A DNA stretch of 64,000 bases from a virus. Position numbers and translations under genes: made by a program. Positions 23,475 to 45,471 of the stretch are shown in pieces. The notes under the pieces are model-generated. The model made no database searches and was not told the DNA's origin. It saw only the letters and a list, made by a program, of their open reading frames with translations. Within the stretch, counting starts at the first letter, position 1. Each line of letters starts with the position of its first letter. The DNA is taken from IMG/VR virus record IMGVR_UViG_3300015360_000029, positions 1 to 64,000 of that record. One strand, written 5' to 3'.

Positions 23475-23482
23475 GTATTTAT
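23475..23482 (-). promoter_or_regulatory. T4-type late promoter for gp6
   Basis: Minus-strand ATAAATAC upstream of the gp6 start (23451). It overlaps the last codons of the small cargo gene ending at 23479. Confidence 0.65.
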
Positions 23483-23700
23483 GTCGGTAGTTGATCGTCA
23501 GGGATCGAACCTTTTCGGACGAGCCACATTCGCTTCATAGTCTCGATGTTCGAGAGTTCAAGGACCTTCTTCTTGTACGGTGCCGGGATGTAGTTCTCGT
23601 CGTCTTCCTCTTCATCGAGGTCGGACTTCCAGTTCCAAGTGATCTGCCCAGTCTCGTCTTCGATCTTGCCTTCGGCGATGAATTGTTTGAACGAGATCAT
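23479..23700 (-). CDS. Small acidic protein with T4-type capsid-targeting N-terminus (73 aa)
   Basis: It starts MISFKQFIAEGKIEDETGQI. The first ten residues match the T4 internal-protein capsid-targeting sequence (MKTYQEFIAEA type), with an I-A-E|G cleavage site for the gp21 protease. The remaining about 63 residues are acidic ('SDLDEEEDDENYIPAPYKKK') and end 'WLVRKGSIPDDQLPT'. The gene sits between gp25 and gp6 and its start overlaps the gp25 stop (ATGA). By analogy with T4 IPI-III it should be packaged inside the head, processed, and ejected with the DNA. The activity of the mature peptide is unknown. Confidence 0.65.
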   Translation of the reverse strand: MISFKQFIAEGKIEDETGQITWNWKSDLDEEEDDENYIPAPYKKKVLELSNIETMKRMWLVRKGSIPDDQLPT

Positions 23701-24074
23701 GATCCAACTGGAAATTCAAGTTTCAACGTTTCCGTGATGTTCAATTTCACGTATTCGACATCGATCATTGCTACGATTGCATTGTTATTTGGGAGCGGCA
23801 GAACAGCGATGTCGATCAAGCGAACTCGCGGGTCATAATTCATTACCATCATAAGATCTTCCTTGATAATGGAAATGCTTGTTTGATCTAGCGGTTCAAA
23901 AGCCATCAACGGGATTCGAGTTCCGAACTTAGGCTGCATCACACGTTCACCTGGAATTGTATAAATGTGGTTCAGCAGATCGCGTTTCACAGTCTCGACA
24001 TCGATTGTCGAGAAGGTCTTCCCGCCATTCTCGACATGAGCTTGTGTACTAAATCCACGATAGATTGATCTCAT
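23697..24074 (-). CDS. 25: Baseplate wedge protein gp25 (125 aa)
   Basis: Starting at ATG 24074 (AAGGA site) gives MRSIYRGFSTQ and a 125-aa protein, close to T4 gp25 (132 aa). The frame stays open upstream to 24137, but that part overlaps gp5 and lacks a ribosome site. The core 'VKRDLLNHIYTIPGERVMQPKFGTRIPLMAFEPLD' is the gp25/W-like lysozyme-derived fold, with the conserved GER and P-x-F-G-(S/T) motifs. gp25 joins the inner baseplate and helps trigger sheath contraction. It lies between gp5 and a capsid-tagged small gene. Confidence 0.9.
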   Translation of the reverse strand: MRSIYRGFSTQAHVENGGKTFSTIDVETVKRDLLNHIYTIPGERVMQPKFGTRIPLMAFEPLDQTSISIIKEDLMMVMNYDPRVRLIDIAVLPLPNNNAIVAMIDVEYVKLNITETLKLEFPVGS

Positions 24075-24078
24075 AATG

Positions 24079-25191
24079 TCATTCCTTCCAATTCTTGCCG
24101 CGCACGATCTTCGATATTGGACGCTTCCATGGTTCATGTGACGGGATTAATGATGGTTGATCAGCGCACGGCGCTAGTGCAGCTTCATTGCCATTCAAAT
24201 GAATCTGAGGTGCCGACTGCATCAGATTTCCGGCTGCAAGAATGTTGAACGTCTCGCCAGATGTGATGTTTACACCACCTGCGCCTGTGAGCGAAAGATC
24301 AGAGCACGCTTCTGCTCGTAATGATTCCGAAGCGTTCAAATTTAGATTCTTACCAGCGCTGATATTCACGTTCCCAAGCGCTTGCAAATTGAAGTCTCCA
24401 CCTGCGGACATGCTGATAGATTCAGCTGCGTATACATGAACATGCCCGTCGCGATCCATCTCTAGCCACGATCGACCTTGTGAAGTTGAAACATAGATTC
24501 GTTCATTCGCATCATCAAAGATAATCTGATGCCCTTCGGCTGTTTTGATTCGAACGCGAGCGCTTCCAGGATGATCTTGCATGATGATCGCGTGCCGACC
24601 TGGCGTAGTGATGCAATACGTCTGCGGATCAAGGCGCCCAATGTTTGAATCAGCAGATCGAATCACTCGCGGCGAATATCCTTCAGAATCCGTCTTTTCG
24701 TCTGTTGGCTGAGCTGCCATTCGTTCGTAAGCTCCGCGCGTTCGAGATATCGACGATGCAAGATCACCTTGGAATTGTGCCTTCAAATTCGTTGCCGTTG
24801 GCTCGATGATGCCACCGCTGTCAGATGTCGGTGCATCATCGTTCACATTTCTGCCAGCTGGAAGACTTCGATTACCGTGATCGGGGAAGAATGATCCCAT
24901 GTATACACGTTGATTGTAATCTCCGTACAAGAACCCAATTAAGACTTGAGCACCGAGTTTTGGAACAGCCCAGAATCCGTATGATACAGGCCCAGAAGAA
25001 GCAGCACTTGATCCGCCAGCTGGGTACCCATAAGCCTGTCCAGCCAGCGGCGAAACATACAGCACCCATGGGAGGATGTCAACGTTAGGATTCTGACCGT
25101 CGATAGATGGGCACCAAACTTTAATGCGACCCATCTCTTGTGGATCAGCGGTGTCAACAACAACCCCGTCAATAAGTCCTGAGTTTGCCAT
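24079..25191 (-). CDS. 5: Baseplate hub spike protein gp5-like, without lysozyme domain (370 aa)
   Basis: Residues about 1-100 form an OB-fold ('IDGVVVDTADPQEMGRIKVWCPS...PWVLYVSPLAG...FWAVPKLGAQVLIGFLYGDYNQRVYMG') typical of gp5/VgrG. The C-terminal half is a beta-helix with short repeats ('GDFNLQALGNVNISAGKNLNLNASESL...NITSGETFNILAAG'). T4 gp5 has a lysozyme domain between these parts; here the central part ('YERMAAQPTDEKTDSEGYSPRVIRS') is too short and lacks it. The stop/start overlaps the probable hub gene upstream (TGATG). It forms the membrane-piercing needle. Confidence 0.85.
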   Translation of the reverse strand: MANSGLIDGVVVDTADPQEMGRIKVWCPSIDGQNPNVDILPWVLYVSPLAGQAYGYPAGGSSAASSGPVSYGFWAVPKLGAQVLIGFLYGDYNQRVYMGSFFPDHGNRSLPAGRNVNDDAPTSDSGGIIEPTATNLKAQFQGDLASSISRTRGAYERMAAQPTDEKTDSEGYSPRVIRSADSNIGRLDPQTYCITTPGRHAIIMQDHPGSARVRIKTAEGHQIIFDDANERIYVSTSQGRSWLEMDRDGHVHVYAAESISMSAGGDFNLQALGNVNISAGKNLNLNASESLRAEACSDLSLTGAGGVNITSGETFNILAAGNLMQSAPQIHLNGNEAALAPCADQPSLIPSHEPWKRPISKIVRGKNWKE

Positions 25192-27656: not shown

Positions 27657-29336
27657 TTATGGTCCTAGGGCAGCGAGCTGCTCTGTAGCTCTTTGGAAAT
27701 CACCTGATGCTCTTTTTATATCTGAAATTGCAGCATCGAGTTCTAAATTTATAGCAAACATTTCAGCTTTAGTGGTCGCTGCTGCCAGACGCGGTTCAAG
27801 GCTGTTATATTGAGCTTTGTGAAATTGAAGTTCTTTGATAACTACACCAATTTCGTTGTTAAGAGCACTCTTCTTAGCTTCAATTTCTGAGGAAGTTAAA
27901 GCTGGTGCAGGTTGTGCTGCAGGTTGTGCTGCTGACACAGATACAGCTGGTGCCACCTCAATAGATCCAGATTCGCCAGCACCGGATTCAGAAGCGGCCG
28001 TCTTCAATTCTGAAATAGCAGGTGTAACAAGATCAGGGATTACATTACCTCGACCGCCTTTAACAGAATCGCCAAGCCCAGCAAAAACTCTTTGTGCTGA
28101 ATCGATATCGGAACGTATCCCACGTCCTCGGCCCCCATTTGGAACTGATTGAGCTTCTTGTTGAGGGATCTCATTTGTAGAAGTTCCAAAGTTCTGGCCT
28201 TCGTATCGAGATTTCGTATCGGCTGTTGGTTGCCCATAAGCATCAATCATGTTCCCGAGAAGGTAATCTTCAAGACTGAATTGATTGAATTCTTTTGTGC
28301 TGAAGCTCTCGACAAGTTGAATTGAAAGTTGGATTACCGTTGGGAACGGGATGTTTGAAGCTGATTCATCTGGCGACATTGCTGGGATGTAATCTACATC
28401 TTTCGGCCAATTCCAACTCAGTGACGTAATGACAACTGGCACCTCGCCGATCATCGATTTCCTGAATCCACGAAACTTCAAAACAGGTGGTGGCGCGCCA
28501 AGTCTGTTCTTGAATCGACCAGATTCGAGTGTGTGATCACCAAAGAACGGCATCGTCCAGCCGCGCAGCCAGTTCAAGTTCTTCAAGTTCAAAGATGCTT
28601 CGGCTGATGTTCGTGAAATAAATGTAGCATTCATTTGCCATTGAACACTTTCAGTGCCTTTATACTTTTGAAAAGAACCTGGGAACTGTGATGGGGATAC
28701 AGCTTCGTATGATACTGACCGATTCTCAACGATCTCTGGCATCACTATGAATTCAATGATCTCACGAGTGATGGTATTTTCAAGAACAACCAAATGCGAA
28801 CGATCTTCTCCAGCATCTTGAATTTTGATTACTTCGTTCACAGATTGTGCTGTCGCTGTCACATCAAGACTGCTGCCGCCGAATCCGAGTCCGAAAGTGT
28901 TCCCGCCAAGAGCTCCGAACAAATTTGGTGGGGCAAATTGGGTAGGAGCAGTTCCACCTAAAAGGCTAGCTGTTGATGGCAGCTTTGATCCTAAATTTTG
29001 AAAAGAATTTATTCCATTCGTAAATCTATTTTTTAGATCAGATATACCTTCTCCAACTTTAGTGCCAAGATCTGAAACAAACATTCCAACTGCGCGGTAT
29101 GCTTCACCTCGTCCCTTTGCTTGTTGGAGACTCGACATAGCTGCTAACCGATTTTGAGCTCGTTCGACAAATTCGGCAGGGGCCTGACCATTTTCAACCG
29201 CTGCCGCGAGTTCCCGAAGATCGTTTTCATCTTGTGTGGGAGTATCGACCCCCGGTAACAACAGATACCCACCAACAAGGTTCTCAGAATTACTGCCTAA
29301 GATGCTTGTGTTAAAGGTTGAATCTGGAATTTCCAT
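27657..29336 (-). CDS. Baseplate tail-tube cap/initiator, gp48/gp54-like (559 aa)
   Basis: The conserved middle ('LENTITREIIEFIVMPEIVENRSVSYEAVSPSQFPG...GTESVQWQMNATFISRT...LRGWTMPFFG...LGAPPPVLKFRGF...IGEVPVVITSLSWNWPKDVDYIP') is the tube-initiator type found in T4-like baseplates (gp48/gp54). The N-terminus (1-170) and the C-terminus (about 400-559, Ala/Gln-rich with a coiled-coil-like 'SEIEAKKSALNNEIGVVIKELQ') are low-complexity extensions. Its start overlaps the stop of the upstream nucleotidyltransferase gene (TAATG). It should cap the hub and nucleate tail-tube growth. Confidence 0.7.
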   Translation of the reverse strand: MEIPDSTFNTSILGSNSENLVGGYLLLPGVDTPTQDENDLRELAAAVENGQAPAEFVERAQNRLAAMSSLQQAKGRGEAYRAVGMFVSDLGTKVGEGISDLKNRFTNGINSFQNLGSKLPSTASLLGGTAPTQFAPPNLFGALGGNTFGLGFGGSSLDVTATAQSVNEVIKIQDAGEDRSHLVVLENTITREIIEFIVMPEIVENRSVSYEAVSPSQFPGSFQKYKGTESVQWQMNATFISRTSAEASLNLKNLNWLRGWTMPFFGDHTLESGRFKNRLGAPPPVLKFRGFRKSMIGEVPVVITSLSWNWPKDVDYIPAMSPDESASNIPFPTVIQLSIQLVESFSTKEFNQFSLEDYLLGNMIDAYGQPTADTKSRYEGQNFGTSTNEIPQQEAQSVPNGGRGRGIRSDIDSAQRVFAGLGDSVKGGRGNVIPDLVTPAISELKTAASESGAGESGSIEVAPAVSVSAAQPAAQPAPALTSSEIEAKKSALNNEIGVVIKELQFHKAQYNSLEPRLAAATTKAEMFAINLELDAAISDIKRASGDFQRATEQLAALGP

Positions 29337-30013
29337 TATTTCTTGATTTCTGCATTAGGTGAATTCAACGAAATTTTGACTTTCTTGAAAATAATGTCAG
29401 CAAGTTTCTGATTGACACCAAGAATACTGGCGAACGCTTTCTTTTTACCAAGCTTCACAGCCAGCCGAGCCATCGATGCCGACATCATGTGAATCGGGAT
29501 TTCTTTACCATTCTCAGCCATGTCTAAGAGTTCTTCAGACGGAACACCATCATCAGGGTCAGCACGCTCATCAAGTCCTGGCAAGATGATGTGTTTCAAT
29601 TTTGAACCGTCAGCTGCAGTGAAATACTTATCTAGCAACTCAATGTATTTCGCAGCACGATCTGATCCGGCTGCGATCGCGTACGGCTCAAAACCAGCCT
29701 TTCGAACGTCTTTGAAAGCATCGAACGCTGTTTTTGAAGTGATGAACTTCACCCCGTTCGCATTCCCAGATGCTGTCATGAACTTGATTCTGTCTTCTGC
29801 CGAGAGTGGGTTCCTCTTCAAATCTTTAGAAGTATTATCGTTAGCTACGACTACGACGATTGGAGTTACCTTGTGCCCCATAGCCACTGTGAATGCTGTC
29901 ATCAACTTAATGGCACTATAGTGGCCTTGAGTTGGTGGATTGAACCGCCCTACCATGACAACCGCCCTTTTCGATTGCTCGCCGACAGTTTCCTCCAACA
30001 AGTATTCATTCAT
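29336..30013 (-). CDS. Nucleotidyltransferase (NMN adenylyltransferase/cytidylyltransferase-like), possibly capsid-targeted (225 aa)
   Basis: The motif 'VVMVGRFNPPTQGHYSAIKLM' contains the nucleotidyltransferase (T/H)xGH signature, and 'MMSASMARLAV' matches the second ATP-binding motif (S-x-S-x-x-R). This fold adenylylates or cytidylylates small molecules such as nicotinamide mononucleotide. I prefer the start at 30013 (MNEYLLEETVGEQ), 5 bases after a GGAG site, over the ATG at 30034. That N-terminus (L-L-E-E|T) is a weak match to the capsid-targeting tag. The gene precedes and overlaps the tube-cap gene. It may make NAD or a modified nucleotide cofactor; the substrate is unknown. Confidence 0.75.
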   Translation of the reverse strand: MNEYLLEETVGEQSKRAVVMVGRFNPPTQGHYSAIKLMTAFTVAMGHKVTPIVVVVANDNTSKDLKRNPLSAEDRIKFMTASGNANGVKFITSKTAFDAFKDVRKAGFEPYAIAAGSDRAAKYIELLDKYFTAADGSKLKHIILPGLDERADPDDGVPSEELLDMAENGKEIPIHMMSASMARLAVKLGKKKAFASILGVNQKLADIIFKKVKISLNSPNAEIKK

Positions 30014-30034
30014 GATGTCTCCAAATTCGATCAT

Positions 30035-30139: not shown

Positions 30140-30676
30140 ATGGCGACAAAAAAGATTTTGACGGCTACCGGAAGCCAACCAGAAGTGATCCCGAAGAAGG
30201 TGATCAAAGTAAAGAAGGCGAAATCGACTTCAACTCGCGGGCATTACGTGACGAACGCTCAGCTGATTGAAGCGATCGCCGCGGACAAACTTACCAAGGA
30301 TGCAACGAATCCAAACGGAAAACTTTCTGGAAAGTTGGCGAAGTATCTCTGGATGATTGCCGAACGGTATTCATACAGTCCGTCTTTCGCAGGATATTCG
30401 TTCCGCGAAGATATGGTTTCAATCGCTGTCGTGAATCTCTGTGCGAATTGGTACAAGTTCGACCCAGCGAAGTCTGACAACCCTTTCGCATTCTACACGA
30501 CGGCTGCATATCGATCGTTCTTGCAGTACCTCGCAGACGAGAAAAAGCATCGCGAAATTCGTGATTCGCTGTTAGTCGAGCATGGTGCGAACCCGTCATT
30601 TGCTTTCCAAGATAGAACACGACCAGGTAAGACTTCGGATGAGACTGCATTTCGTTCCTCATCTGGGGAGGAGTGA
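30140..30676 (+). CDS. 55: Late transcription sigma factor gp55 (178 aa)
   Basis: A protein of 178 aa (T4 gp55 is 185) starting at ATG 30140 after an AGAGGAC site. The core 'GHYVTNAQLIEAIA...LAKYLWMIAERYSYSPSFAGYSFREDMVSIAVVNLCANWYKFDPAKSDNPFAFYTTAAYRSFLQYLADEKKHREIRD' is the minimal sigma region 2 of gp55, with the GY...D-M...A...F-D...N-P-x-A-Y/F-x-T order. gp55 directs host RNA polymerase to TATAAATA-type late promoters, which are abundant in this window. It is the first gene of a plus-strand operon with gp47 and gp46. Confidence 0.9.
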   Translation: MATKKILTATGSQPEVIPKKVIKVKKAKSTSTRGHYVTNAQLIEAIAADKLTKDATNPNGKLSGKLAKYLWMIAERYSYSPSFAGYSFREDMVSIAVVNLCANWYKFDPAKSDNPFAFYTTAAYRSFLQYLADEKKHREIRDSLLVEHGANPSFAFQDRTRPGKTSDETAFRSSSGEE

Positions 30677-30680
30677 GTCA

Positions 30681-31766
30681 ATGGCAATCATTACAACTGC
30701 TCGGAGTTCTCCATTGAAAAAAGAACTCGGCGAAATCAGAAAGCTCTGTGCTTTTACGGACATCCATTTTGGCGCCAGAAACAATAGCGATCAGCATAAT
30801 TTGGATTGTTTGGACTTCATCGATTGGTTCATCACAAAAGTGAAGATGATCAAGCCAAGCCACATCGCATTTCTTGGAGACTTCTTTGAGAATCGGAACG
30901 CGATCAACGTTCGCACTTTGAATGCTGCGACTGAATGCTGCCGCCGTTTGAACGCCTTAGGCATCCCGATCTTTTGGATCGTTGGAAATCATGATCTGTA
31001 TCACCGTTCGAATCGAAAGATCTTCTCGACTGACATCTTCTCAGATCACGATAACTTCATCGTCATCAACGAGCCAATCGAATTGAACAAGGATTGGTTC
31101 GCTGCTCCTTTCCTATTCAAAGACGAGTACCCGTCGTTGGCTGCCGACATCAACAGCCACAAGTACGTGATGGGGCACTTCGAGTTCAGGAACTTCGTTG
31201 TTGCTGGATCAACTCGAACTCTCGATCACGGACCTGAGGCTGAAGCATTTTCAGGTCCGAAGTATATCTTCACTGGACACTTTCATAAGCGGCAGTTCAA
31301 TCGGAACATTGTATACATCGGGAATACATTCCCGACGAACTACGGCGATGCCGGCGATGCCGCTCGTGGAATGGCCATCTTCGATGTTGAAAGTGATGAA
31401 GTGTATTTTGAAGATTGGGAAGATGCTCCGTTATTTTTCAAGACAAAGCTCAGTCAAGTTCTCGAAGGCGAAAGCGAATGGCCGCCGAAGAGTCGTGTTC
31501 GCTGTACCCTTGATGCTGATATTGGGTACAGCGACGTTCAAGCTCTTCGCGAAGAGATGATCAAGTCGTTCAGTCTTCGTGAATTTTCAGTCGAAGAAGA
31601 TCAAGCACTTCGAAAGGGAATGCTGAGTGAAGGTTTAGAATTAGAGACAGAACTTGACACGAGTTCGCTTGATTCGACAGTGAGACAGTTGATCATCGAT
31701 GGTGTTCAACCATCGCCGACGATTGATCCCGCAGTTCTGGTTCGTTTGTACGAGGAGTTAGTGTGA
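30681..31766 (+). CDS. 47: Recombination endonuclease subunit gp47 (Mre11/SbcD-like, 361 aa)
   Basis: I chose ATG 30681 (MAIITTARSS) because a strong GGGGAGGAG site precedes it; an open frame further upstream overlaps gp55. The metallophosphoesterase motifs appear in order: 'FTDIHFGARN', 'FLGDFFENRN', 'IVGNHDLYHR', 'VMGHFEFRN' and 'FTGHFHKRQ'. With gp46 it forms the nuclease that resects DNA ends for recombination-dependent replication and helps degrade host DNA. The stop overlaps the start of a tiny membrane-protein gene (TGATG). Confidence 0.92.
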   Translation: MAIITTARSSPLKKELGEIRKLCAFTDIHFGARNNSDQHNLDCLDFIDWFITKVKMIKPSHIAFLGDFFENRNAINVRTLNAATECCRRLNALGIPIFWIVGNHDLYHRSNRKIFSTDIFSDHDNFIVINEPIELNKDWFAAPFLFKDEYPSLAADINSHKYVMGHFEFRNFVVAGSTRTLDHGPEAEAFSGPKYIFTGHFHKRQFNRNIVYIGNTFPTNYGDAGDAARGMAIFDVESDEVYFEDWEDAPLFFKTKLSQVLEGESEWPPKSRVRCTLDADIGYSDVQALREEMIKSFSLREFSVEEDQALRKGMLSEGLELETELDTSSLDSTVRQLIIDGVQPSPTIDPAVLVRLYEELV

Positions 31767-31894
31767 TGGAGAATTTAGCTGTGATGCTCTGGGCTATCGT
31801 CGGCGCTACGTTGATTGGAATTTGGGCAGGTTCTCCAATGCTCGGCATCGGTGTGTACTGCTGCATTGCGGCAACAGGAGGTTGGAAGTCATGA
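31766..31894 (+). CDS. 42-aa membrane peptide between gp47 and gp46
   Basis: The frame from ATG 31766 to TGA 31894 encodes 42 residues: a short start 'MENLAVMLWAIVGATLIGIW', a glycine-rich turn, then 'GIGVYCCIAATGG'. It reads as one or two transmembrane segments. It starts inside the gp47 stop (TGATG) and ends overlapping the gp46 start (ATGA), so it fits the coupling seen throughout this operon and is very likely translated. No family is recognised. It could be an inner-membrane anchor or a small regulatory peptide. Confidence 0.6.
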   Translation: MENLAVMLWAIVGATLIGIWAGSPMLGIGVYCCIAATGGWKS

Positions 31895-33634: not shown

Positions 33635-33654
33635 TAGATGCTTTGGAGACTTGA

Positions 33655-35454: not shown

Positions 35455-35456
35455 TG

Positions 35457-35465
35457 TGATACAAT
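35457..35465 (+). promoter_or_regulatory. Extended -10 promoter (TGATACAAT)
   Basis: TGATACAAT lies 22 bases before the GTG start at 35488 and has the same form as the elements at 30088 (TGTTACAAT) and 52637 (TGATACAAT). It is probably recognised by host sigma70 early in infection. Confidence 0.5.
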
Positions 35466-35487
35466 AACTTTATTAACAGGAGTTATC

Positions 35488-35820
35488 GTGTCAGCAAAGC
35501 AAGCAAAGCGCCTTCGTAAGGCAGCTATGGGTCTCGCAGTGTCAGTTTCGGAAGCAGGCAGGGAAATCAGAGGCCGCACGCTGCTTGCTCAAGAGCATCG
35601 TCGAACAGCTGCATCATCCACAGTCACATCTTCAGCCTCAATGAAGCCTGATCAAATTGTTTCCGACGATGTTCATATCGAGACCTTCGCTGTGTCTGCA
35701 ATCAATGCGCCGAACTCGCTGCGCGGCATCATTCGTTCCCTAAAGAAGGGCATGAAGAATGGCACGCTCGACAAGATGCCACCGCGGTCGCGGTGCTCCA
35801 CCAGCTCCGAACTTCGCTGA
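35488..35820 (+). CDS. Small basic protein, 3' end uncertain (110 aa as read)
   Basis: It starts at GTG 35488 behind an AGGAG site. It is basic at the N-terminus ('MSAKQAKRLRKAAMGLAVSV') with a Ser/Thr-rich middle. The last 14 residues (MPPRSRCSTSSELR) look out of frame. Another frame, entered by a -1 shift near 35780, gives a natural helix ('DATAVAVLHQLRTSLKNEHS...SEWWKRSSL') that ends at 35870 and would overlap the next gene. Either the C-terminus is short or there is a frameshift. Function unknown. Confidence 0.45.
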   Translation: MSAKQAKRLRKAAMGLAVSVSEAGREIRGRTLLAQEHRRTAASSTVTSSASMKPDQIVSDDVHIETFAVSAINAPNSLRGIIRSLKKGMKNGTLDKMPPRSRCSTSSELR

Positions 35821-35823
35821 AGA

Positions 35824-37128: not shown

Positions 37129-37497
37129 TTATGAAGAGCGATCCATAGCATTCTCGAGCTTAGCAATTCCGCTCATAAGCACTTCCATTTCTTTTTCAAG
37201 AACTTTCAAGTCATCGTCAGCCCGACTATCATATTGATCCCCAGACCGTGATCTTTGTGAATGATATTGATTTTTCCGTTCTACATCAATCCGTTGTTGA
37301 AGCTCTTCTTTTTTAGACAGTGCTTGATCGATCTTTGTTTGTAAAGAAGATTTAAGCATGTTCTCACCGTCTTCAACCAGACCAGTAACTTCACGTGTCT
37401 TCGCAACGAAGTACTCGTGCATCGTAACAGCAGCTTGCTCTTGACGATCGTTGATGATGTCTTGAAGCATTGCCTTCAGTGTTTCTTTATTGCTCAT
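37129..37497 (-). CDS. Probable prohead core/internal protein, paralogue of 55602-55787 (122 aa)
   Basis: The N-terminal about 40 residues ('LKAMLQDIINDRQEQAAVTMHEYFVAKT') are nearly identical to those of the gene at 55602 ('LKSMLQDIINDRQEQASVTMHDYFVLKT'). That gene sits between the protease and the scaffold gene, where T4 places small prohead core proteins. This copy has an added charged coiled-coil tail ('TKIDQALSKKEELQQRIDVERKNQYH...LKVLEKEMEVLMSGIAKLE'). It has its own late promoter and an AGGAG site. It is probably a head core or internal component. Confidence 0.6.
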   Translation of the reverse strand: MSNKETLKAMLQDIINDRQEQAAVTMHEYFVAKTREVTGLVEDGENMLKSSLQTKIDQALSKKEELQQRIDVERKNQYHSQRSRSGDQYDSRADDDLKVLEKEMEVLMSGIAKLENAMDRSS

Positions 37498-37579: not shown

Positions 37580-38149
37580 TCACATCTCAAGTTGATCAAC
37601 GTACAGCTTCGACACAGGATTCTTGACCAGACGTTTAGAGCCTTGAGCGTACAAGCCTTGTTTGATCTCGTCCGCCATGTTCTTTGTGATGTTCCTGGAT
37701 CGCATTCCACCACGCAGGAAGAAGTGAACTGGAACAGGCTCGTCACCATTGACACGTCGAACCATTCGCATCCGTCCACGACCTTCGTGTCCTACGATCT
37801 TCGGAAGCGTCTTGCCTTCGTCGTCGATCATGATCTCGAAGAACGGGATCCCGATTGCGTACCCTTCTTCAACGAACTTCTCAAGATCACGTGACGTTGG
37901 CTCTTGCTGACCTTCGTCGTCGAGAGCGAGCGACATGAACACTGACGGCTTCACAAAACCGACGAACCCCATGTACCATACGTTCGTGTTGTTCGGAACT
38001 GAGCCGAACCCTTTGCTCGAAGAGAACGTGATCTTCCCGACTGTGTAATCTTCTTCTGCTAAAGCTGGTGACCAAGCCGGAACATCACCAAGCCTCTTGG
38101 CATGAATCTCGCGCTCAGCCTCGGCAAGGAATTGTTTGAATGTGTGCAT
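37580..38149 (-). CDS. Protein with T4-type capsid-targeting N-terminus (189 aa)
   Basis: It starts MHTFKQFLAEAEREIHAKRL; the first ten residues match the T4 internal-protein capsid-targeting sequence with an L-A-E|A cleavage site. The body has 'NNTNVWYMGFVGFVKPSVFMSLAL', 'IPFFEIMIDDEGKTLPKIVGHEGRGRMRMVRRVNGDEPVPVHFFLRGGMRSRNI'. This last stretch, with its G-R-G-R-M-R and P-V-P-V-H elements, looks conserved, but I cannot name its function. The message may be leaderless (late promoter at 38153-38160, no ribosome site). It probably enters the host with the DNA. Confidence 0.65.
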   Translation of the reverse strand: MHTFKQFLAEAEREIHAKRLGDVPAWSPALAEEDYTVGKITFSSSKGFGSVPNNTNVWYMGFVGFVKPSVFMSLALDDEGQQEPTSRDLEKFVEEGYAIGIPFFEIMIDDEGKTLPKIVGHEGRGRMRMVRRVNGDEPVPVHFFLRGGMRSRNITKNMADEIKQGLYAQGSKRLVKNPVSKLYVDQLEM

Positions 38150-38201: not shown

Positions 38202-40040
38202 TTAGATCTGCGCGCCAGTTGAAACAACACGGATCGGGATATGGATGAATTCTGCGGCACGCGTTGGCTTGATTGCAATATCGAGATACATCTCGTTCGC
38301 GTCGATGCGGGCTGCGGTGTTGTTCGTAGCATCACAGTATGATGCGTAGTCGGTAAGACCACGCTTAGATAAGATGTCGTTCATCACGCCATCAGCTGCT
38401 GCTTTCAAGTTATCACGTGTAAGCTGATCGTTCGGCTCGAATACAAATGGCTGCGCACCTTTGCGAAGGACGCGGCGAAGATACATCACGAGGCGAACAA
38501 CGTTGATCCGGTCAAGAGCCGAAGCTGCCGGAGCCGAAGTCTTCTGACCCCAGACAATAATTCCGCGACCTGGGAAGAACACGATTGGGTTGATGTTCTT
38601 GTAGTATTCATACAAGTTGTCGCGTTGACCGCTGTTCAAAGAAACTGGAACGAAGGTGGTTGCTGTCCCAAGAGCGCCAGTCACGAACCCAACATTGTCC
38701 ACACCGAATGTAATGCCGCGTGAGATACCAGCTGGAGCTACCCAAACGTACGATTGATTGTCGCTGTATGCAAACGTTCGAAGAGCGACACCTGATGGTG
38801 CGCCAAGAACATTTCGACCGTCGAGATTTGATTGAACTGCCCACGGGTAGTAGTACGAAATTGAATTTCCTGACTGGCGGGCGGATGTGAGCGCCCATTG
38901 CGCTGTCTGATCTGGATTCAGATTGGACGGAGTATCGGCAATCACCATCGCTTCGTCCTTAACATCGACTGAAAGCAGTGTCAATTCGCCAGCGCATTCG
39001 AAGTATCCAGGACAGAGGATCAAGTTGAACTCATAAAATTCCGAGCGAACGTCTTGATTGATGTTGATCGAAGCTTGAAGAGCAGTGACGATCGACAGAC
39101 GGCGAGCTGCATCATCTGCGCCGAGCGGGTTCGTAACTGTAACAGATGAAGATGTTACAGTGAATGAATCACCAACCGCGAACAGTGTTACGCCTGGAAC
39201 GATTGTGAAGTTCAGGTAGTTATCGTCATATGGCGAATTCACAGCGCCCACACCTGCAGGTCCTATCAAGTACGCAACTGTGAAGTTCGAAGCAGTCGTG
39301 AACGTAATCGTAGCAACGTTGTTCCCGAGCGAAACATCAGGTGCAAGATTCTGAACTGCCCCGTTGCCGACGTTGCCAACACCTGGAGTTGCTGCGTACG
39401 CAAGAGCGAACATGAACTTGTCACCGGCTACGAATGGTACGAGGCCCGCAGAAACAGTGAAGCCAACGACTTGCGACGTGAGAGGAGCACCGACATTGCC
39501 GTCTTTGATGAAGCCTGCAACGGAACCAGTAACACCGAATTCAGTACCAGAAGTGAATGTGACAGTGATGATCTGTGGCTTCACAGCTAATGATGTCGCA
39601 ATGCGTGCGCTAATCGTACCGTTACCAACGCCAACGAACGAAGCTGCGCCTGACATTGGGATACCAAGTGAAACGAAAGTTTCAGCAGCATCGTCAAGAT
39701 CAACGTTCGCACGAACAACGTATGCGCGATTTCCAATCCCCAAGAATGAATTCAAAGCGAGCAATCCGTATTCATTCCGAGCATCGCCGTGGTATTCGTT
39801 ACCAGAGATGTCATTCAAGAAATACGGAACACCGTACAGCTCAAGCGATTGAGTTTGTGACGTCACTGTGCGAACAACGCCGTGCTCAAGAGTACCAGCA
39901 GCCAAAGTCGAACCGTTAGGTTGCAACTTTCCTGTACGAGTAGCAATGAACAGAAGTGGAACTGTCGTTGCCGTCGTCGGAAAGAAAAAGCTTTGATCTG
40001 TAACTGTGACGCTTACGCCAGGGGAGATAAGGTTGGACAT
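38202..40040 (-). CDS. 18: Tail sheath protein gp18 (612 aa)
   Basis: It starts MSNLISPGVSVTVTDQSFFF with an AGCAGGAG site. Sheath-family features include the N-terminal 'SPGVSVTVTDQS', the 'YYYPWAVQSNLDGRNVLGAPSGVALRTFA' core and the C-terminal 'INPIVFFPGRGIIVWGQKT...RINVVRLVMYLRRVLRKGAQPFVFEPND...YLDIAIKPTRAAEFIHIPIRVV'. Between about residues 145 and 310 it carries two copies of the recurrent GD-F beta module ('FTVSAGLVPFVAGDKFMFAL', 'FTIVPGVTLFAVGDSFTVTS'), which probably protrude from the sheath surface. The tube gene gp19 is not adjacent. The sheath contracts to drive the tube through the envelope. Confidence 0.92.
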   Translation of the reverse strand: MSNLISPGVSVTVTDQSFFFPTTATTVPLLFIATRTGKLQPNGSTLAAGTLEHGVVRTVTSQTQSLELYGVPYFLNDISGNEYHGDARNEYGLLALNSFLGIGNRAYVVRANVDLDDAAETFVSLGIPMSGAASFVGVGNGTISARIATSLAVKPQIITVTFTSGTEFGVTGSVAGFIKDGNVGAPLTSQVVGFTVSAGLVPFVAGDKFMFALAYAATPGVGNVGNGAVQNLAPDVSLGNNVATITFTTASNFTVAYLIGPAGVGAVNSPYDDNYLNFTIVPGVTLFAVGDSFTVTSSSVTVTNPLGADDAARRLSIVTALQASININQDVRSEFYEFNLILCPGYFECAGELTLLSVDVKDEAMVIADTPSNLNPDQTAQWALTSARQSGNSISYYYPWAVQSNLDGRNVLGAPSGVALRTFAYSDNQSYVWVAPAGISRGITFGVDNVGFVTGALGTATTFVPVSLNSGQRDNLYEYYKNINPIVFFPGRGIIVWGQKTSAPAASALDRINVVRLVMYLRRVLRKGAQPFVFEPNDQLTRDNLKAAADGVMNDILSKRGLTDYASYCDATNNTAARIDANEMYLDIAIKPTRAAEFIHIPIRVVSTGAQI

Positions 40041-40133: not shown

Positions 40134-41621
40134 TCACTTTCTGATACCGAGCTTCTTCAGAATGTCATCTTCCCATAATGTTCCTGAGATATTTACATCT
40201 TGAAGCGTTATTCCTAGACGCTTCAGGATCAAACGGAATTCAGCTTTGTGCCTGTCACTAGATTTCTTGATTCCAAGTTCAGAGAACGCTCGAAACAGCC
40301 CGCTAAGCAACTTACTTTGAAACCAGTCTTTTGCATATCGTTGTCGAGTTGAGTTACTTGTAATTCTGCCTGCTTTGGCATCGGCCATCCAAACATTCAA
40401 TTCTTTGGCTATATCTTCTTGATCACCGAACTCGAGGATGTCTGCAAGTGATCGAGAATCTAAGTCAGTATTCTCATCTGCAGCTTCGACCTTTCCAAGA
40501 ATCTTCGTGACTTTCTTCAAGTATTCATTTCGTTCTGCAGCTGGATCGATCGCGATTTCTAGAGCAAGAACGAATCGCAGAATAGTATCATAGATCAAAT
40601 CGTACTTCGTGTGGTATTCAGCATTCCCGGCAATTCGGAATTCAAGATATCCACTCTTTATCTTCTCAATGTGCACAGACGAATACTTAGCTGTTGAAAG
40701 AGCTGAGCGAGCGAGTTTCACCATCGCATCAGCTTCCTTTGGAAGCTTTCCAATGCCAGTAAGAGAAGTGACGATCGCATCGGTCTGCGGCTTCGTAAAT
40801 GTGTTCGAAAGACGATCAAATTGTTTCAGAACATATCTATCACCCATGAACAATACGAGCTTCAACAGATCAGCATTCTCAATCCCAGGCATACTGATGT
40901 TTATGTGCAAGCCAGTGGTGATGTTCGTTTCAACATTTTGCCGAACCATCCAGCTAAACATTGATTTCAAATCTTGAAGTGCTTTCATCAAAGTCTGCGG
41001 CGGCGAGATAATTTCTGCACCAACCCCTACGGCACCTGCAGTAATTGATCTGTCAGGAACTACAAGCCAGTCACCTCTATCGAAGTGTTCTTTAGATTCG
41101 CGCCAGGCTATCGTGACATTTTGCTCAAGATGATCTGACAAATCGTCCTCTATGTTCGAGAATGTTCCCTTTTGCATCTCTTCGATATCCATGTCGGCTA
41201 GACCGCCGATGTAGATTCTAGCCGATGATTGCCCAGTATCAGCTTCCCAACCGTATGTTGGGATGAAACCATTGGCTTTCACGAAATTGTACACAGATTT
41301 ATATTCGTCAGAGATGAAGTTCTCCCATTCGATTTCATCATCTTCCGATTTCGTTTGAACCCAATTGTCGTATTCTTTGGTAATTGTCTTTTTCTCAACT
41401 TTGTCAATTTCGAAATAATCAAATAATTCATTGAAGTCTGTGATTTTGTTCAATGACGTCCATTCGCGATTCACTTCTCCATTCGCAAGAAGTTCGGACT
41501 TTTCAGAAATGACGCACTCGAATTCGAACCCAATTTTTGCATCGCTATGCCGCTCCGCTGCTTTTGCGAATTCAGCACGGTTCATCGCCTTCTCAGCAAG
41601 GAAGTTTTTGAATGTAATCAT
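40134..41621 (-). CDS. Amidoligase-like enzyme with capsid-targeting N-terminus (495 aa)
   Basis: The tag 'MITFKNFLAE|KA' is followed by 'SDAKIGFEFECVIS', then 'WLVVPDRSITAGAVGVGAEIISPPQTLMKALQDLKSMFSWM...TNITTGLHINISMPG'. The G-x-E-x-E/C, W-x-x-x-x-D-x-S-I, E-I-x-S-P and T-G-x-H-I-x-I motifs fit the amidoligase family with a glutamine synthetase/GCS-type fold, which joins carboxyl and amino groups using ATP. Strand 2 reads F-E-F-E-C, keeping two acidic metal ligands. The start overlaps the gp15 stop (ATGA). I infer an enzyme packaged in the head that modifies host or phage amino compounds; the substrate is unknown. Confidence 0.6.
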   Translation of the reverse strand: MITFKNFLAEKAMNRAEFAKAAERHSDAKIGFEFECVISEKSELLANGEVNREWTSLNKITDFNELFDYFEIDKVEKKTITKEYDNWVQTKSEDDEIEWENFISDEYKSVYNFVKANGFIPTYGWEADTGQSSARIYIGGLADMDIEEMQKGTFSNIEDDLSDHLEQNVTIAWRESKEHFDRGDWLVVPDRSITAGAVGVGAEIISPPQTLMKALQDLKSMFSWMVRQNVETNITTGLHINISMPGIENADLLKLVLFMGDRYVLKQFDRLSNTFTKPQTDAIVTSLTGIGKLPKEADAMVKLARSALSTAKYSSVHIEKIKSGYLEFRIAGNAEYHTKYDLIYDTILRFVLALEIAIDPAAERNEYLKKVTKILGKVEAADENTDLDSRSLADILEFGDQEDIAKELNVWMADAKAGRITSNSTRQRYAKDWFQSKLLSGLFRAFSELGIKKSSDRHKAEFRLILKRLGITLQDVNISGTLWEDDILKKLGIRK

Positions 41622-42562
41622 GGGTATTGAACCTGGTTAGGCTCAGGCGGGCTTCGAGTTCCTCGCTGAGGAGCGATGTATTTTTCGATTTCGTACCAGC
41701 GCACCCCGTCCCAACGCTTTGCAATGTTCGATGTCATGTCGAACCAAGTTTCATCGACTTCTGGATTTGCCGGCGCAATGTTCTGAACGTACGTGCATTC
41801 AGCTGCACTCGGTACTTCGTTAGTGTCGAAGTCGAGGCGCGTGAATGGTTCATCGAACGGAACTAAATTTCCAAAGTCATCAACTTCATTAATATTCATC
41901 GATCCAAGGTTTCCAATTTGAATGATAACTCGACGAACCAGATCATCTTTCACGCCCATTGGAATACTGAGGAAGATTGGAAGTTCGAACGCCAAAGTCC
42001 ATAAAATTATTCGACGATCGGATCCAGATGGATAATTCTCTTCGTTGCTAATCGAAGTGAGTTCGACTTTTGTAATTCGAGTCCAATCAAACGGGCCATC
42101 AGACTTCTGAATTTGCAGATCTGGATTGAACAACACAAGCACTTGCTCAAGGATTTGATCTCGTTGTTGTGTATTCGAGGTGTAAATGCTGAGTTCAACA
42201 GTAATGTTGTACGGGATCGGCATCGCTCGCTTCACAACAGTCAGATCTGTTGGGAACACACCGCCAATTGGAAGCGTGACGCGTTGATCAACGTATGCTT
42301 GAACCTTTCGACGCTCTGGCGCTGGATCGATTTGCGTCAGGTGGGCCGCCATCGTCGGAAGACTGAACACACGATTCTGTGTGTTCCCTGCCATGATCGC
42401 AGCGACAACACGATCTTTGTGCCCGATCACGATTGGCACTGTGATAAATTCTGCATCGCCGCATTCGCCGATCCCAGTTTGAACTTGGAGACCGTGAAAG
42501 ATACTGACGAATTGCAAAAGGTACTGTCGCAGTTGATTGTCGAAGTGGTAGTGAGTGATCAT
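41618..42562 (-). CDS. 15: Tail sheath stabiliser gp15-like (314 aa)
   Basis: It starts MITHYHFDNQLRQYLLQFVS; the pattern 'YHFDNQLRQYLLQFVSIFHGLQVQTG...FITVPIVIGHKDRVVAAIM' and 'MPIPYNITVELSIYTSNTQQRDQILEQVLVLFNPDLQIQ' align well with T4 gp15 (272 aa), including 'RRIILWTLAFEL'. The C-terminal about 40 residues ('DETWFDMTSNIAKRWDGVRWYEIEKY') form the short Trp-rich module shared with several virion proteins here. gp15 caps the finished tail and joins it to the neck. The start overlaps a 27-aa tag peptide gene (ATGA). Confidence 0.85.
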   Translation of the reverse strand: MITHYHFDNQLRQYLLQFVSIFHGLQVQTGIGECGDAEFITVPIVIGHKDRVVAAIMAGNTQNRVFSLPTMAAHLTQIDPAPERRKVQAYVDQRVTLPIGGVFPTDLTVVKRAMPIPYNITVELSIYTSNTQQRDQILEQVLVLFNPDLQIQKSDGPFDWTRITKVELTSISNEENYPSGSDRRIILWTLAFELPIFLSIPMGVKDDLVRRVIIQIGNLGSMNINEVDDFGNLVPFDEPFTRLDFDTNEVPSAAECTYVQNIAPANPEVDETWFDMTSNIAKRWDGVRWYEIEKYIAPQRGTRSPPEPNQVQYP

Positions 42563-42642
42563 TTGAATAACTTCGGATGAGTGTCAATGTATTCGGCGGC
42601 CTTGTCTGTCATTTCAGCAATGAATTGTTTGAATGTGGTCAT
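42559..42642 (-). CDS. 27-aa peptide consisting mainly of a capsid-targeting sequence
   Basis: This frame encodes 27 residues: MTTFKQFIAE, a match to the T4 capsid-targeting tag, then 17 residues (MTDKAAEYIDTHPKLFK). Its ATG overlaps the stop of the ParB-like gene (ATGA) and its TGA overlaps the gp15 start (ATGA), so it fits the coupled operon exactly. After cleavage, a 17-aa peptide would remain in the head. It could be a functional ejected peptide, a decoy substrate for the protease, or the remnant of a larger cargo gene. Confidence 0.6.
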   Translation of the reverse strand: MTTFKQFIAEMTDKAAEYIDTHPKLFK

Positions 42643-42974
42643 GACACCTTCGATTCTTCAAGTTGTTCTTGCGAAACGATTCTGCCTGGGAGATATTCAA
42701 CTTCCATATCTATAGCTTTTTGAAGGCGATGAACACCATCCAACACGACCCATTTGCGTTTCCAAATCGTCATCAACAGCGGAGCATTTAAGTCAGCAGA
42801 TTTCACACGCGCAGCATCATTGTCTTCAGCAAGGATCCATTCAATGTCAGCAACTTTGAAATACGAGACTGGGTTCTTATCAACAAGTCTAAACACCGTG
42901 TTTATGTCATACTTCTGCTTGTCATGGGTAAACGAACCACCTTTTGTCTCTTGATATAATTCAAAAAGCTTCAT
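42639..42974 (-). CDS. ParB/sulfiredoxin-fold protein with tag-like N-terminus (111 aa)
   Basis: It starts MKLFELYQETKGGSFTHDKQ. The C-terminal half, 'PLLMTIWKRKWVVLDGVHRLQKAIDMEVEYLPGRIVS', has the ParB-like core: a strand, then D-G-x-H-R-L-x-x-A (ParB has G-E/N-x-R), then L-P...V. This fold occurs in DNA-binding partition proteins, nucleases and sulfiredoxin. The N-terminal 'M-K-L-F-E-L-Y-Q-E|T' resembles a loose form of the capsid-targeting tag. It overlaps the gp14-like gene (ATGA) upstream and the tag peptide downstream. It could act on host DNA or proteins after ejection. Confidence 0.6.
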   Translation of the reverse strand: MKLFELYQETKGGSFTHDKQKYDINTVFRLVDKNPVSYFKVADIEWILAEDNDAARVKSADLNAPLLMTIWKRKWVVLDGVHRLQKAIDMEVEYLPGRIVSQEQLEESKVS

Positions 42975-44854
42975 GTGATCTTCTTGGTTGTGAGACTCAT
43001 TGTCTGAGTGCGATTCAAGATTTCAAGCTGTGACGGACGATGTGCCGAACGATCATTCCTTCGATCTTGTTCAACAAAAATCCACTTGTTCTTTGCAAGA
43101 CTGAACTTGTACAATCTTGCTGCGAGCTTCAACGCAGAATCGTATTCAAGCCTGAAGAAGTTCCCATCAAGTTGGCCAGCTACATCTGGCAATTTATTGT
43201 ACCCAGTCTGATAAGGTGCGCCATCAGGTGGTAAACCATCTTCGACATATGGTCCGACACCATCGTATGAGCCAGGCTGATTGAATCGATTTGTACCTGA
43301 AGCTTGTTCACGAACGTTCGTGCCCTTCTCAGGAACAGCGATCTTCGCATCTGCTGAATTCTTTTCCGTGATAGTCAATGGCGCTGTTTGAATCTGCTCG
43401 ACACCGCTGAAGAACGAACCATCGTCAATGATGTACTTCTGTGTGTCGACAGTACCAACGATGTCTCGCGTTTCTTGCGAAGGAATCAGAAGCTGCGCCT
43501 GAAATCTATACATGATAGGGCGCCAGTTCGTGCTGAATCCTTCAGCACTCCACGAGACATCATTCACTTCGAGGAATTTACGAACTGGGCGAAGATTATG
43601 ATCGTACTGAAGTTCATTCGGGACTTCGATCACATCACCTACAACGATTGGACGTCCGAGCACTGTAACCATGAGCGCGAAACTCGTAGTGAATGTGTAT
43701 ACGTCAGCGATATTGAATCCGAACTTGCTCAAATCTGAAATCGCATCGAATGGGGTGTACGCAGCTTTCAGAGAGATCGAAGCTTTCGCGTAGTCACGAT
43801 CTCGATTCTCCATGTATAACGTGTCTTGAATGTCATCAAGTCGCGTCTGCTGAAAGTCAAAGAGTTCCAGCTTTTCGACTGTCCATGAATCATTCGTGAG
43901 AGCACCAGTGAAGCTCAATGGGACGATACGCCAGTATCGTGCTCCAGCTGAAGCTTTGATTCGAATCATAGCTGAAGTTTGCACGTTCGGCAAGTTCACA
44001 ACATCAACACGAAGCCACGATAGCTCGATCGGGACGGAAAAGAGATCGTTCGCAGCATATGGGATGCTGCCTGCCATAATCGTGAACGACCCAATTAGTG
44101 AGTTGAATCGAACACCAACAGTCGCGAGACCAAGCACTGAAGTACCACCAGGACCAGTGAACATGATGCTGAAGAGTGTTGATGACGATGCAATCGCCAT
44201 GATAGTGCCTGGCTTCGGCGAAACACCTGAATTGAAGGAACCGAACCCGCCATTCCCGACGCCTGTGAACGACACTTTCAATGGGTCAATGAAGTACCCG
44301 CCATCGGAACGATCAACACGAACTTGCAGAGCTCGTTGAGAAGCACTTGAACTCTGCTGGATTCTGAACGAAGTGATGTGCATTCTAACACCAATGTCTG
44401 GGGCATTCTCTGGTTGACCGTACGAAGTCAACCTGATACCGAAATCATACCCAAGGAATGCAGGTACTGACACGACACTCGATCCAGTTTCAGTTGAAAT
44501 CCAAGATCCCGCAAGCGAGTCGAATGCGTTCGCCGGAGTGCCTGAACCAAGGGCCTGACCATTTCCAGTCAGATCAATTAACTTCCCTTGCTCGTGAATG
44601 CCGAGGAGCTTGAAGATGTTCAGCGGTGCACCAGAGACCAGCAGGTTCTCGATCGCTACCGATTCTTGATACGACGAATCAGCGGCTGAAGTACTATCCG
44701 TAAGCGAGTATTCTGGGGTGCAGTACGCCGGTGGAACATACGGGTTCGCACCAGAACCTGGTGGCGTCGTTTGGATCGGGAGCCCAGAGCCGGGCAATGT
44801 TGGGTTATTGATAGAGCCGGCAGCGTCAGCACAATCATCAAGTGTTGTTCGCAT
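42971..44854 (-). CDS. 14: Neck protein gp14-like, enlarged (627 aa)
   Basis: The region 'VTVLGRPIVVGDVIEVPNELQYDHNLRPVRKFLEVNDVSWSAEGFSTNWRPIMYRFQAQLLIP' resembles the C-terminal part of T4 gp14 (P-x-x-x-G-D-x-I-x-V-P ... F-E-V ... Y-x-F-x-x-x-L). The position between gp13- and gp15-like genes agrees. It is more than twice T4 gp14 (256 aa). The extra N-terminal 300 residues include a carbohydrate-binding-like beta sandwich ('NAFDSLAGSWISTE...YDFGIRLTSYG...ITSFRIQQSS') and one GD-F module ('FTIMAGSIPYAANDLFSVPI', about 44000). The start overlaps the kinase-like gene (TAATG). Confidence 0.65.
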   Translation of the reverse strand: MRTTLDDCADAAGSINNPTLPGSGLPIQTTPPGSGANPYVPPAYCTPEYSLTDSTSAADSSYQESVAIENLLVSGAPLNIFKLLGIHEQGKLIDLTGNGQALGSGTPANAFDSLAGSWISTETGSSVVSVPAFLGYDFGIRLTSYGQPENAPDIGVRMHITSFRIQQSSSASQRALQVRVDRSDGGYFIDPLKVSFTGVGNGGFGSFNSGVSPKPGTIMAIASSSTLFSIMFTGPGGTSVLGLATVGVRFNSLIGSFTIMAGSIPYAANDLFSVPIELSWLRVDVVNLPNVQTSAMIRIKASAGARYWRIVPLSFTGALTNDSWTVEKLELFDFQQTRLDDIQDTLYMENRDRDYAKASISLKAAYTPFDAISDLSKFGFNIADVYTFTTSFALMVTVLGRPIVVGDVIEVPNELQYDHNLRPVRKFLEVNDVSWSAEGFSTNWRPIMYRFQAQLLIPSQETRDIVGTVDTQKYIIDDGSFFSGVEQIQTAPLTITEKNSADAKIAVPEKGTNVREQASGTNRFNQPGSYDGVGPYVEDGLPPDGAPYQTGYNKLPDVAGQLDGNFFRLEYDSALKLAARLYKFSLAKNKWIFVEQDRRNDRSAHRPSQLEILNRTQTMSLTTKKIT

Positions 44855-45471
44855 TACGAAGCCACCGGATCGGTGAACACAAGTTGAGCTCGACCTTTGT
44901 CATCTCGCATCATGACGTTCTTATCGTGCAGATCGACGCCATTCAGATTCGCAAAGTACTTCGCAACAACTCGAACATCGTCATCAGTTGTTTTGCTAGC
45001 GATGCGGCCCCAGTGCTCATCGAGCTCTTGGAAATCGGTGTAATCAATCATGTCATCGAACAGCGGATCGTCTTGTCCGCCTTGATCGAAGTACTTCGGT
45101 GGGACCGTTTTGAGAACACGTTGCACAGCAGCTTTGATTTCTTTCTTAGTGGCTGGCCGAAGCTTTTGAAAGAAGATGATGTGCGCACTCACCGTCCCGC
45201 CATCTCTTAGGAACTTATCATCAACATCGACCTTATGAATGCTGACGATCTTTGGCAGCCATTCGTTGTTCGGGTTCTTCTCACAGAACTTTGCGAACTG
45301 CATGTACTCTGGATCGTATTCAACAACCTTGACTGCGACGTTGTGGTACACTGGATGTTGGAACACCGACGCGTACACACCAGTGCCGAGCTTCTTGATG
45401 TTCAGCGATTTCACAAGCTTATCGGTGTATTGATCAAGCGTCTCTTCTTGAATGAGTTCAAATACTTTCAT
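44854..45471 (-). CDS. Protein kinase-like protein with tag-like N-terminus (205 aa)
   Basis: After 'MKVFELIQEE|TLDQ' comes a compact kinase pattern: glycine loop 'LGTGVYASVF' (about residues 28-37), ATP-binding lysine in 'VAVKVV' (about 48), the catalytic loop 'GVDLHDKNVMM' (D and N in D-L-H-D-K-N) and a DFG-like Asp in 'VFTDPVA' at the very C-terminus. At 205 aa it is smaller than usual kinases (about 260), with most of the C-lobe after the DFG missing. It may phosphorylate a protein or small molecule. It lies between gp13- and gp14-like genes. T4 also packages host-modifying enzymes such as Alt. Confidence 0.65.
   Translation of the reverse strand: MKVFELIQEETLDQYTDKLVKSLNIKKLGTGVYASVFQHPVYHNVAVKVVEYDPEYMQFAKFCEKNPNNEWLPKIVSIHKVDVDDKFLRDGGTVSAHIIFFQKLRPATKKEIKAAVQRVLKTVPPKYFDQGGQDDPLFDDMIDYTDFQELDEHWGRIASKTTDDDVRVVAKYFANLNGVDLHDKNVMMRDDKGRAQLVFTDPVAS

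Follow-up and report, generated by a model that had tools for sequence, protein, structure and literature searches.

N-terminal capsid-targeting tags of the T4 type on putative cargo genes of a large virus of bacteria

Several unrelated proteins of a large T4-like virus of bacteria start with the same address label of approximately ten residues that phage T4 uses to load proteins into its head, suggesting that the virus probably carries a swappable set of enzymes which enter the host cell together with its DNA. The window analysed was a stretch of 64,000 nucleotides (positions 1 to 64,000 of the IMG/VR record IMGVR_UViG_3300015360_000029), and no match was obtained when it was compared with phages by Megablast. 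Four minus-strand ORFs in the window start with MxxFKxF[IL]AE, and the same contig carries two more tags outside the window, at 72189+ and 75982+. The features are listed in the table, and ORFs are named hereafter by their low (stop-codon) ends.

Features of the window relevant to the tagged genes, with the evidence for each
Coordinates	Strand	Feature	Evidence
23479..23700	-	Tagged small acidic protein, 73 aa, MISFKQFIAE followed by GKIED; orphan, between gp6-like baseplate gene and 23697-24137	ATGA overlap at 23697-23700; no relative in fetched loci
29336..30034	-	Cytidylyltransferase-like enzyme; weak tag MIEFGDIMNE followed by YLLEE	PF01467 E 7.9e-7; phrog_3041 2.6e-15; ATGA start at 30034; homologues carry the strict tag
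37580..38149	-	Tagged protein, 189 aa, MHTFKQFLAE followed by AEREI, downstream of tail sheath; weak similarity to a ParB/sulfiredoxin-like fold	Tag present in essentially all orthologues, E10 lost in one; AF2 pLDDT 88; weak Foldseek hits to sulfiredoxin, Osa, ParB, Noc, PadC
38202..40040	-	Tail sheath gene (landmark of the junctions)	Landmark of the sequence-only reading; N-terminus resembles the annotated sheath monomer of PA5oct; conserved order
40134..41621	-	Tagged amidoligase-like protein, 495 aa, MITFKNFLAE followed by KAMNR	Amidoligase_2 in 10/10 family members, best 1.5e-12; strict tag in 12 of 13 relatives, MKLDVLFER in the other
41618..42562	-	gp15-like tail sheath stabiliser (untagged landmark)	PF16724 1.6e-36
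42559..42642	-	27-aa mini-ORF that is little more than a tag, MTTFKQFIAE followed by MTDKAAEYIDTHPKLFK	ATGA overlap on both sides
42639..42974	-	111-aa protein with class-2 tag MKLFELYQET	phrog_17560 2.3e-17; relatives MRLTELYQET, MKLFELYQEE
42971..44854	-	Virion structural protein (untagged landmark)	phrog_11591 6.9e-22; conserved order
44854..45471	-	Protein kinase-like protein, class-2 tag MKVFELIQEE; T7 gp0.7-kinase family	phrog_15752 3e-14; kinase-like motifs GTGVYASVF, VAVK, DLHDKNVMM, FTDP; one orthologue starts MRFKQFIAEE
45778..47664	-	Head-tail adaptor (gp13/14 region landmark)	phrog_211 7.7e-41
53196..54500	-	Major capsid protein; [LI]xE sites at 5, 16, 31, 39 and no further I/L sites	Relatives; site scan
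54527..55423	-	gp22-like scaffold, dense in [ILV]xE sites (19 listed)	Position between protease and capsid genes; site scan
56502..57110	-	gp21-like prohead protease	PF03420 Peptidase_S77 1.6e-27; phrog_207 6.7e-55

To test whether the shared N-termini could have arisen by chance, we examined 88 loci that had been fetched with gp15 or capsid-protein queries, and thus without using the tag. In these loci, 48 of 1,180 called genes carried the strict tag near the N-terminus, against 0 of 5,743 internal methionines, and a reversed-pattern control gave almost no hits in the relatives, so that chance is excluded. Three ORFs matching the tag pattern were set aside as false, namely a terminase-like N-terminus, a hydrophobic, membrane-like protein and a 21-aa ORF. 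Next, we asked whether the second half of the peptide follows the T4 rule when N-termini are picked on residues 1-5 alone. Of 52 N-termini selected in this way, 49 had an aromatic residue at position 7, 51 had I/L at position 8 and 41 had E at position 10. Interestingly, these are among the residues that T4 IPIII mutants assign to head targeting (4 and 7) and to gp21 processing (8 and 10) (PMC9026906). In T4 itself, the DNA pattern returned ipII, ipIII and gp61.1.

The sequence-only reading had proposed that these genes are a family of capsid-tagged cargo genes wedged between virion genes, and our results support this interpretation, although some of its details needed correction. It had given MNEYLLEET as a looser tag of the 29336 protein; however, this ORF most likely starts at 30034, where it overlaps the upstream ORF by ATGA, and MNEYLLEET begins at an internal methionine. 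It had also pointed to 12 conserved bases encoding F-K-Q-F. The sequence TTCAAACAATTC does occur exactly three times, at 42633, 38140 and 23691, but under the codon usage of the window each FKQF has a 0.14 chance of that spelling (0.003 for all three, calculated post hoc), and relatives spell it in many ways, so the conservation lies in the protein and the DNA-level argument adds little. Most of the genes had been described as joined to structural genes by ATGA or TAATG overlaps. We found ATGA overlaps at 23700, 41621, 42642 and 42974, and the stop codon of 44854-45471 overlaps the next start by one base, whereas 38149 lies 52 bases after the sheath gene and is not overlapped.

The two looser starts MKLFELYQET and MKVFELIQEE belong to a second tag class, MK[LV]x[DE]L..E, although MKLFELYQET lacks I/L at P3. 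The tag classes interchange within the kinase and amidoligase families, showing that one protein family may carry either class. This second class was enriched in the virion proteome of PA5oct (8/90 against 0/158). However, the PA5oct test used a pattern refined after seeing the data, and it was not reproduced significantly in phAPEC6, which barely uses either tag (1/61 against 1/640, p = 0.17). The strict tag was absent or at chance level in PA5oct, XacN1, Atu_ph07, phiM12 and S-PM2, with no strict-pattern hit in XacN1 and Atu_ph07, indicating that the system is not universal in the group.

We then analysed the proteins that follow the tags. In relatives, 101 tagged ORFs fell into 27 unrelated protein families, inserted at fixed junctions between virion genes, and the cargo varied from phage to phage at the same junction. 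In the window, the mini-ORF, like the 23479 gene, is an orphan. The window member of the amidoligase family matched Amidoligase_2 with an E of 0.0014, below the cutoff, but invariant E, DGS, EIVSPP and TGLH.N positions were present in the family. For the 44854 protein, the kinase motifs were found in all full-length orthologues, although Pfam kinase models did not hit. The Foldseek hits of the 37580 protein had a best E of 0.055 and TM of 0.27-0.40, with several ParB/Srx-fold entries near the top, and no Pfam or PDB profile hit was obtained. No relatives of the 44854 and 37580 proteins were found in cultured phages. The largest tagged family in relatives (34 members) contains YRG/CST motifs suggestive of an ADP-ribosyltransferase; however, its confident model (AF2 pLDDT 88) had no PDB fold match (best E 1.8), and this identity was rejected. 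In a predicted cargo structure, the tag was the low-confidence segment. A tagged homologue of the 29336 enzyme, the cytidylyltransferase of cyanophage S-SM1 (MKKFSAFLNE), was detected in virions by published MS (PMC3037559).

Taken together, our results make it highly likely that the N-terminal peptides are capsid-targeting sequences. By inference from T4, rather than from virion or N-terminal data for this phage, the tag (aromatic residues 4 and 7 above all) would dock each tagged protein to the scaffold while the prohead core assembles, and the gp21-type protease would then cut after Glu10, leaving the mature protein free in the head to be packed with the DNA and ejected with it at infection. 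Because the tag alone would be the address, genes for unrelated enzymes could be gained, lost or replaced at the junctions between virion genes, where they would be translated with the head and tail proteins. The likely cargo of this phage is a kinase, an amidoligase, probably a nucleotidyltransferase, and proteins of unknown function. That the cargo acts as early host-takeover or counter-defence effectors is only weakly inferred.

Other explanations appear less likely. The tag might be a prohead-core assembly signal on resident head components (core or inner body, DNA condensation) that are not ejected and do not act in the host, since it resembles sequence around the T4 capsid-protein cleavage site (gp61.1 against gp23) and tagged genes sit among virion genes. 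We consider this unlikely, as the cargo includes predicted enzymes (kinase-like, amidoligase, zeta/AAA P-loop kinase and nucleotidyltransferase) and varies at the same junction, unlike structural parts, and as T4 internal proteins and Alt with such leaders are ejected (PMC9026906). It is even more doubtful that the peptide targets proteins elsewhere (membrane, replication compartment or tail) and only resembles the T4 sequence. Although some tagged genes (23479 and 37580) lie among baseplate and tail genes, residues 8 and 10, which T4 uses only for protease processing, are conserved with position 9 free, and the tagged S-SM1 homologue is a virion protein. A nucleotide-level element (translation coupling or recombination site) that happens to encode the peptide is very improbable. 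The three occurrences of the 12 bases and the many ATGA overlaps would fit such an element, and in several genomes codon identity between tags slightly exceeded expectation (0.61 against 0.50 here); nevertheless, codons differ freely between and within genomes while the residues stay, codon identity equalled expectation in one genome (0.45 against 0.45), and 37580 is not overlapped.

A broader possibility, which we regard as about as likely as not, is that large T4-like phages run a general, two-tag cargo loading system that may mimic parts of the capsid protein or core. Any gene acquiring a leader of roughly 10 residues at a virion-gene junction would then become an injected protein, and the phage group would deliver in this way a wide, fast-changing set of enzymes (kinases, amidoligases, nucleotidyltransferases, zeta-type kinases and several unknown folds). 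If our interpretation is right, a ten-residue rule lets one list, from sequence alone, which proteins a T4-like or jumbo phage injects, a question usually answered one protein at a time and worked out mainly for T4. It would also turn many hypothetical proteins between virion genes into testable early effectors, predict injected kinases and amidoligases, and suggest how new cargo is recruited, by a short leader, at fixed junctions, in two interchangeable forms.

The mechanism is the known T4 capsid-targeting sequence, and what is new is the scale, the predicted enzyme cargo, the junction arrays and the second tag; in the papers we could search, short-leader cargo was described for T4-like coliphages and P1 only, not for this group. 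The closest known systems include that of the T4 internal proteins IPI-IPIII (MKTYQEFIAE in IPII and IPIII), which share with the present tags the length, spacing, aromatic residues 4 and 7, I/L at 8, E at 10, an S77 protease in the same genome and unrelated bodies behind one leader. In contrast, the cargo of the window includes predicted enzymes as well as small inhibitor-like proteins, relatives carry up to 13 tags on a 55.7-kb contig, in tandem arrays and at fixed virion junctions, position 5 is K and position 2 mostly I, and a second tag class occurs. T4 Alt, a head-packaged ADP-ribosyltransferase, is likewise an enzyme carried in the head with a short cleaved leader (PMC9026906), but the cargo enzymes here are different. 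The kinase family of T7 gp0.7 is matched by the 44854 protein, which is here predicted to arrive packaged. In P1, an N-terminal signal of DarB loads a foreign protein into the head (PMC9024508), although no consensus is shared among Dar proteins and the signal is longer than nine residues. Polyvalent and MuF-fused head-packaged effectors, including ADP-ribosyltransferases, are also carried in virions (PMC9503650), but those are large fusions or are inferred from neighbourhood, whereas here a short, presumably cleavable leader marks stand-alone proteins.

We compared the capsid protein of the window, which is part of an 87,459-base virus record, with those of other phages. Among cultured phages the closest were Xanthomonas phage XacN1 (50%) and two Stenotrophomonas jumbo phages, whereas IMG/VR relatives reached 85%, with contigs of up to 350 kb. 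The sequence-only reading had proposed that several unrelated proteins share a T4-like capsid-targeting N-terminus, and the four clear tags that it named are present as stated, although its coordinates are the low ends of genes lying on the minus strand. One of the four is a 27-aa mini-ORF that is little more than a tag. The contig carries two further tags outside the window. The coordinates of the features are collected in the table below.

Coordinates of tagged genes, virion genes and related features
Record	Coordinates	Strand	Feature
Virus record	23479 (low end)	-	Tagged gene, orphan
Virus record	29336 (low end); best start 30034	-	Cytidylyltransferase-like gene, weak tag
Virus record	30582-37068	+	Block of genes interrupting the minus-strand virion cluster; cargo genes lie on both sides
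Virus record	31822	+	gp46-like recombination gene within this block
Virus record	37129-37497		ORF next to the tagged gene 37580, similar to 55602-55787
Virus record	37580 (low end)	-	Tagged gene
Virus record	40134 (low end)	-	Tagged amidoligase-like gene
Virus record	42559-42642	-	Mini-ORF, orphan
Virus record	42639-42974	-	Second-class cargo gene, MKLFELYQET
Virus record	44854 (low end)	-	Kinase-like gene, MKVFELIQEE
Virus record	53196-54500	-	Capsid protein gene, MQLIENWQET
Virus record	55602-55787		ORF in the head gene cluster, similar to 37129-37497
Virus record	56502-57110	-	Peptidase_S77 protease gene, MKLLSEDLSP
Virus record	72189	+	Further tag, outside the window
Virus record	75982	+	Further tag, outside the window
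T4 (NC_000866)	18966-19130		Gene 61.1
Contig G009 (locus L223)	10270-18076		About ten tagged genes in tandem
PA5oct	83248		Virion protein with a start similar to that of the ORFs at 37129 and 55602

Next, we asked whether such N-termini could occur by chance. In 88 related loci, which were fetched without reference to the tag, together with the window, 48 of 1,180 called genes had the strict tag within the first 25 residues, whereas none of 5,743 internal methionines did. Across 18 related contigs, the DNA pattern for MxxF/YxxF/Y[IL]xE had hits in 17, with almost none for the reversed pattern, although a few of these hits, such as the single ones in contigs G010 and G013, look like chance. In T4 the pattern returned ipII and ipIII, annotated as 'internal virion protein', and gp61.1.

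To test whether the tag follows the rule known from T4 genetics, we selected N-termini on residues 1-5 only (M.[TS][FY][KR]) and then examined the remaining positions. Mutational work on T4 IPIII has placed head targeting at residues 4 and 7 and protease processing at residues 8 and 10 of its ten-residue leader (PMC9026906). Of 52 N-termini, 49 had an aromatic residue at position 7, 51 had I or L at position 8 and 41 had E at position 10, while position 9 was free; the corresponding numbers for internal-methionine controls were 7, 2 and 1 of 15. The window encodes a Peptidase_S77 protease, and its capsid protein has LIE, LLE, LLE and LME at 5, 16, 31 and 39, with no further I/L-x-E site in the remaining 395 residues. 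Thus the protease specificity implied by the capsid protein is the one with which the tags end. Interestingly, the capsid protein, the second-class cargo protein at 42639 and the protease have similar N-termini, as if all proteins of the prohead core shared one docking peptide.

We then analysed how the tag is distributed among protein families. The 101 tagged ORFs of at least 45 aa in relatives fell into 27 families by body sequence. Gene order was conserved as head-tail adaptor, virion protein, gp15 and sheath, and tagged genes of different families filled the junctions between these, sometimes three in a row. Contig G009 had 13 tags in 55.7 kb, ten of them in an 8-kb cluster made up mostly of one rapidly diverging family with a confident model but no known fold. 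Short tag-only ORFs recurred, with 27 aa in the window and 25-29 aa in three related loci (L030, L033 and L013), and these may be stubs left after cargo loss. In addition, the two ORFs at 37129 and 55602 are similar (LKxMLQDIINDRQEQAxVTMHxYFVxKT), possibly representing a duplicated prohead-core protein with one copy beside the cargo.

The sequence-only reading had listed MKLFELYQET and MKVFELIQEE as looser versions of the tag, but our analysis showed that they belong to a second class, MK[LV]x[DE]L..E. When N-termini were selected on residues 1-5, 31 of 32 had a hydrophobic residue at position 6 and 21 of 32 had an [LI]xE site ending at positions 8-10, against 5 and 4 of 21 internal controls. 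In the kinase family most members have this class (MKIFELIQEE, MKLQDLITEE, MRVQELLTEE), but the member from locus L034 has MRFKQFIAEE at the same place, and in the amidoligase family 12 of 13 have the strict class, whereas the member from locus L027 has MKLDVLFER. Thus the two classes are interchangeable. In PA5oct, whose GenBank record marks proteins found by virion mass spectrometry, the second class occurred in 8 of 90 virion proteins and 0 of 158 others (Fisher 2.4e-4), although the search pattern had been refined on these data; phAPEC6 had one in each group, which neither supports nor refutes the association.

To understand what the tagged genes may encode, the cargo proteins were examined by profile searches, motif inspection and structure prediction. 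The 44854 protein is kinase-like and falls in the T7 gp0.7 PHROG (3e-14), with G-loop, VAVK, DLHxxN and TDP motifs. For the 40134 protein, Amidoligase_2 was found in all ten relatives scanned. The 29336 protein is cytidylyltransferase-like, its best start being assigned by an ATGA overlap; although its own tag is weak, eight of its environmental homologues carry the tag. For the 37580 protein the tag was present in essentially all orthologues, and the confident model (pLDDT 88) gave only weak matches, several of them to the ParB/sulfiredoxin fold. Relatives add a zeta-toxin/AAA_33-type kinase, a second kinase family, ART-PolyVal proteins and a 34-member family with no known fold.

Published proteomic data provide an experimental anchor for these observations. 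Sullivan and colleagues found the putative cytidylyltransferase (T4-GC190) by mass spectrometry in purified S-SM1 virions (PMC3037559). This protein, SSM1_190, begins with MKKFSAFLNE, containing F4, F7, L8 and E10, and is the only hit of the tag pattern in the S-SM1 genome. The Syn9 orthologue (MKKFSAFLSE) is likewise the only hit in its genome. Furthermore, PA5oct EST35_0202, a virion protein by mass spectrometry, is homologous from residue 1 to an environmental tagged family, though its own tag is degenerate (MKSFRDYYDA).

Taken together, our results demonstrate the tag, its rule, the protease, the modular distribution and the exchange of tag classes, whereas docking to the core, cleavage after Glu10, packing with DNA and ejection are inferred from T4. 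Roles in early host takeover or counter-defence are only weakly inferred: T4 internal proteins do inhibit restriction enzymes (PMC12373910), but none of the cargo here was linked to a target. A hint at the origin of the tag came from the 54-aa T4 protein gp61.1, which starts with MKTFKEFIKE. Its residues 2-38, tag included, align with gp23 residues 57-93 across the capsid-protein (gp21) cleavage region (score 82, shuffled maximum 44). The tag may therefore mimic the end of the capsid-protein propeptide, and gp61.1 itself may be an unrecognized internal protein.

In the open-access literature searched, we found no paper describing the leader in this jumbo group, at this scale, on such enzymes or with a second interchangeable tag. 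The leader mechanism itself, however, is that of T4. A 2022 review has already suggested that it could load varied proteins (PMC9026906), and the identification of ip genes by their leader in T-even phages is also known (PMC12373910). The system seen here differs from that of T4 in the group of phages that carries it, in its scale, in its predicted enzyme cargo and in its second tag class.
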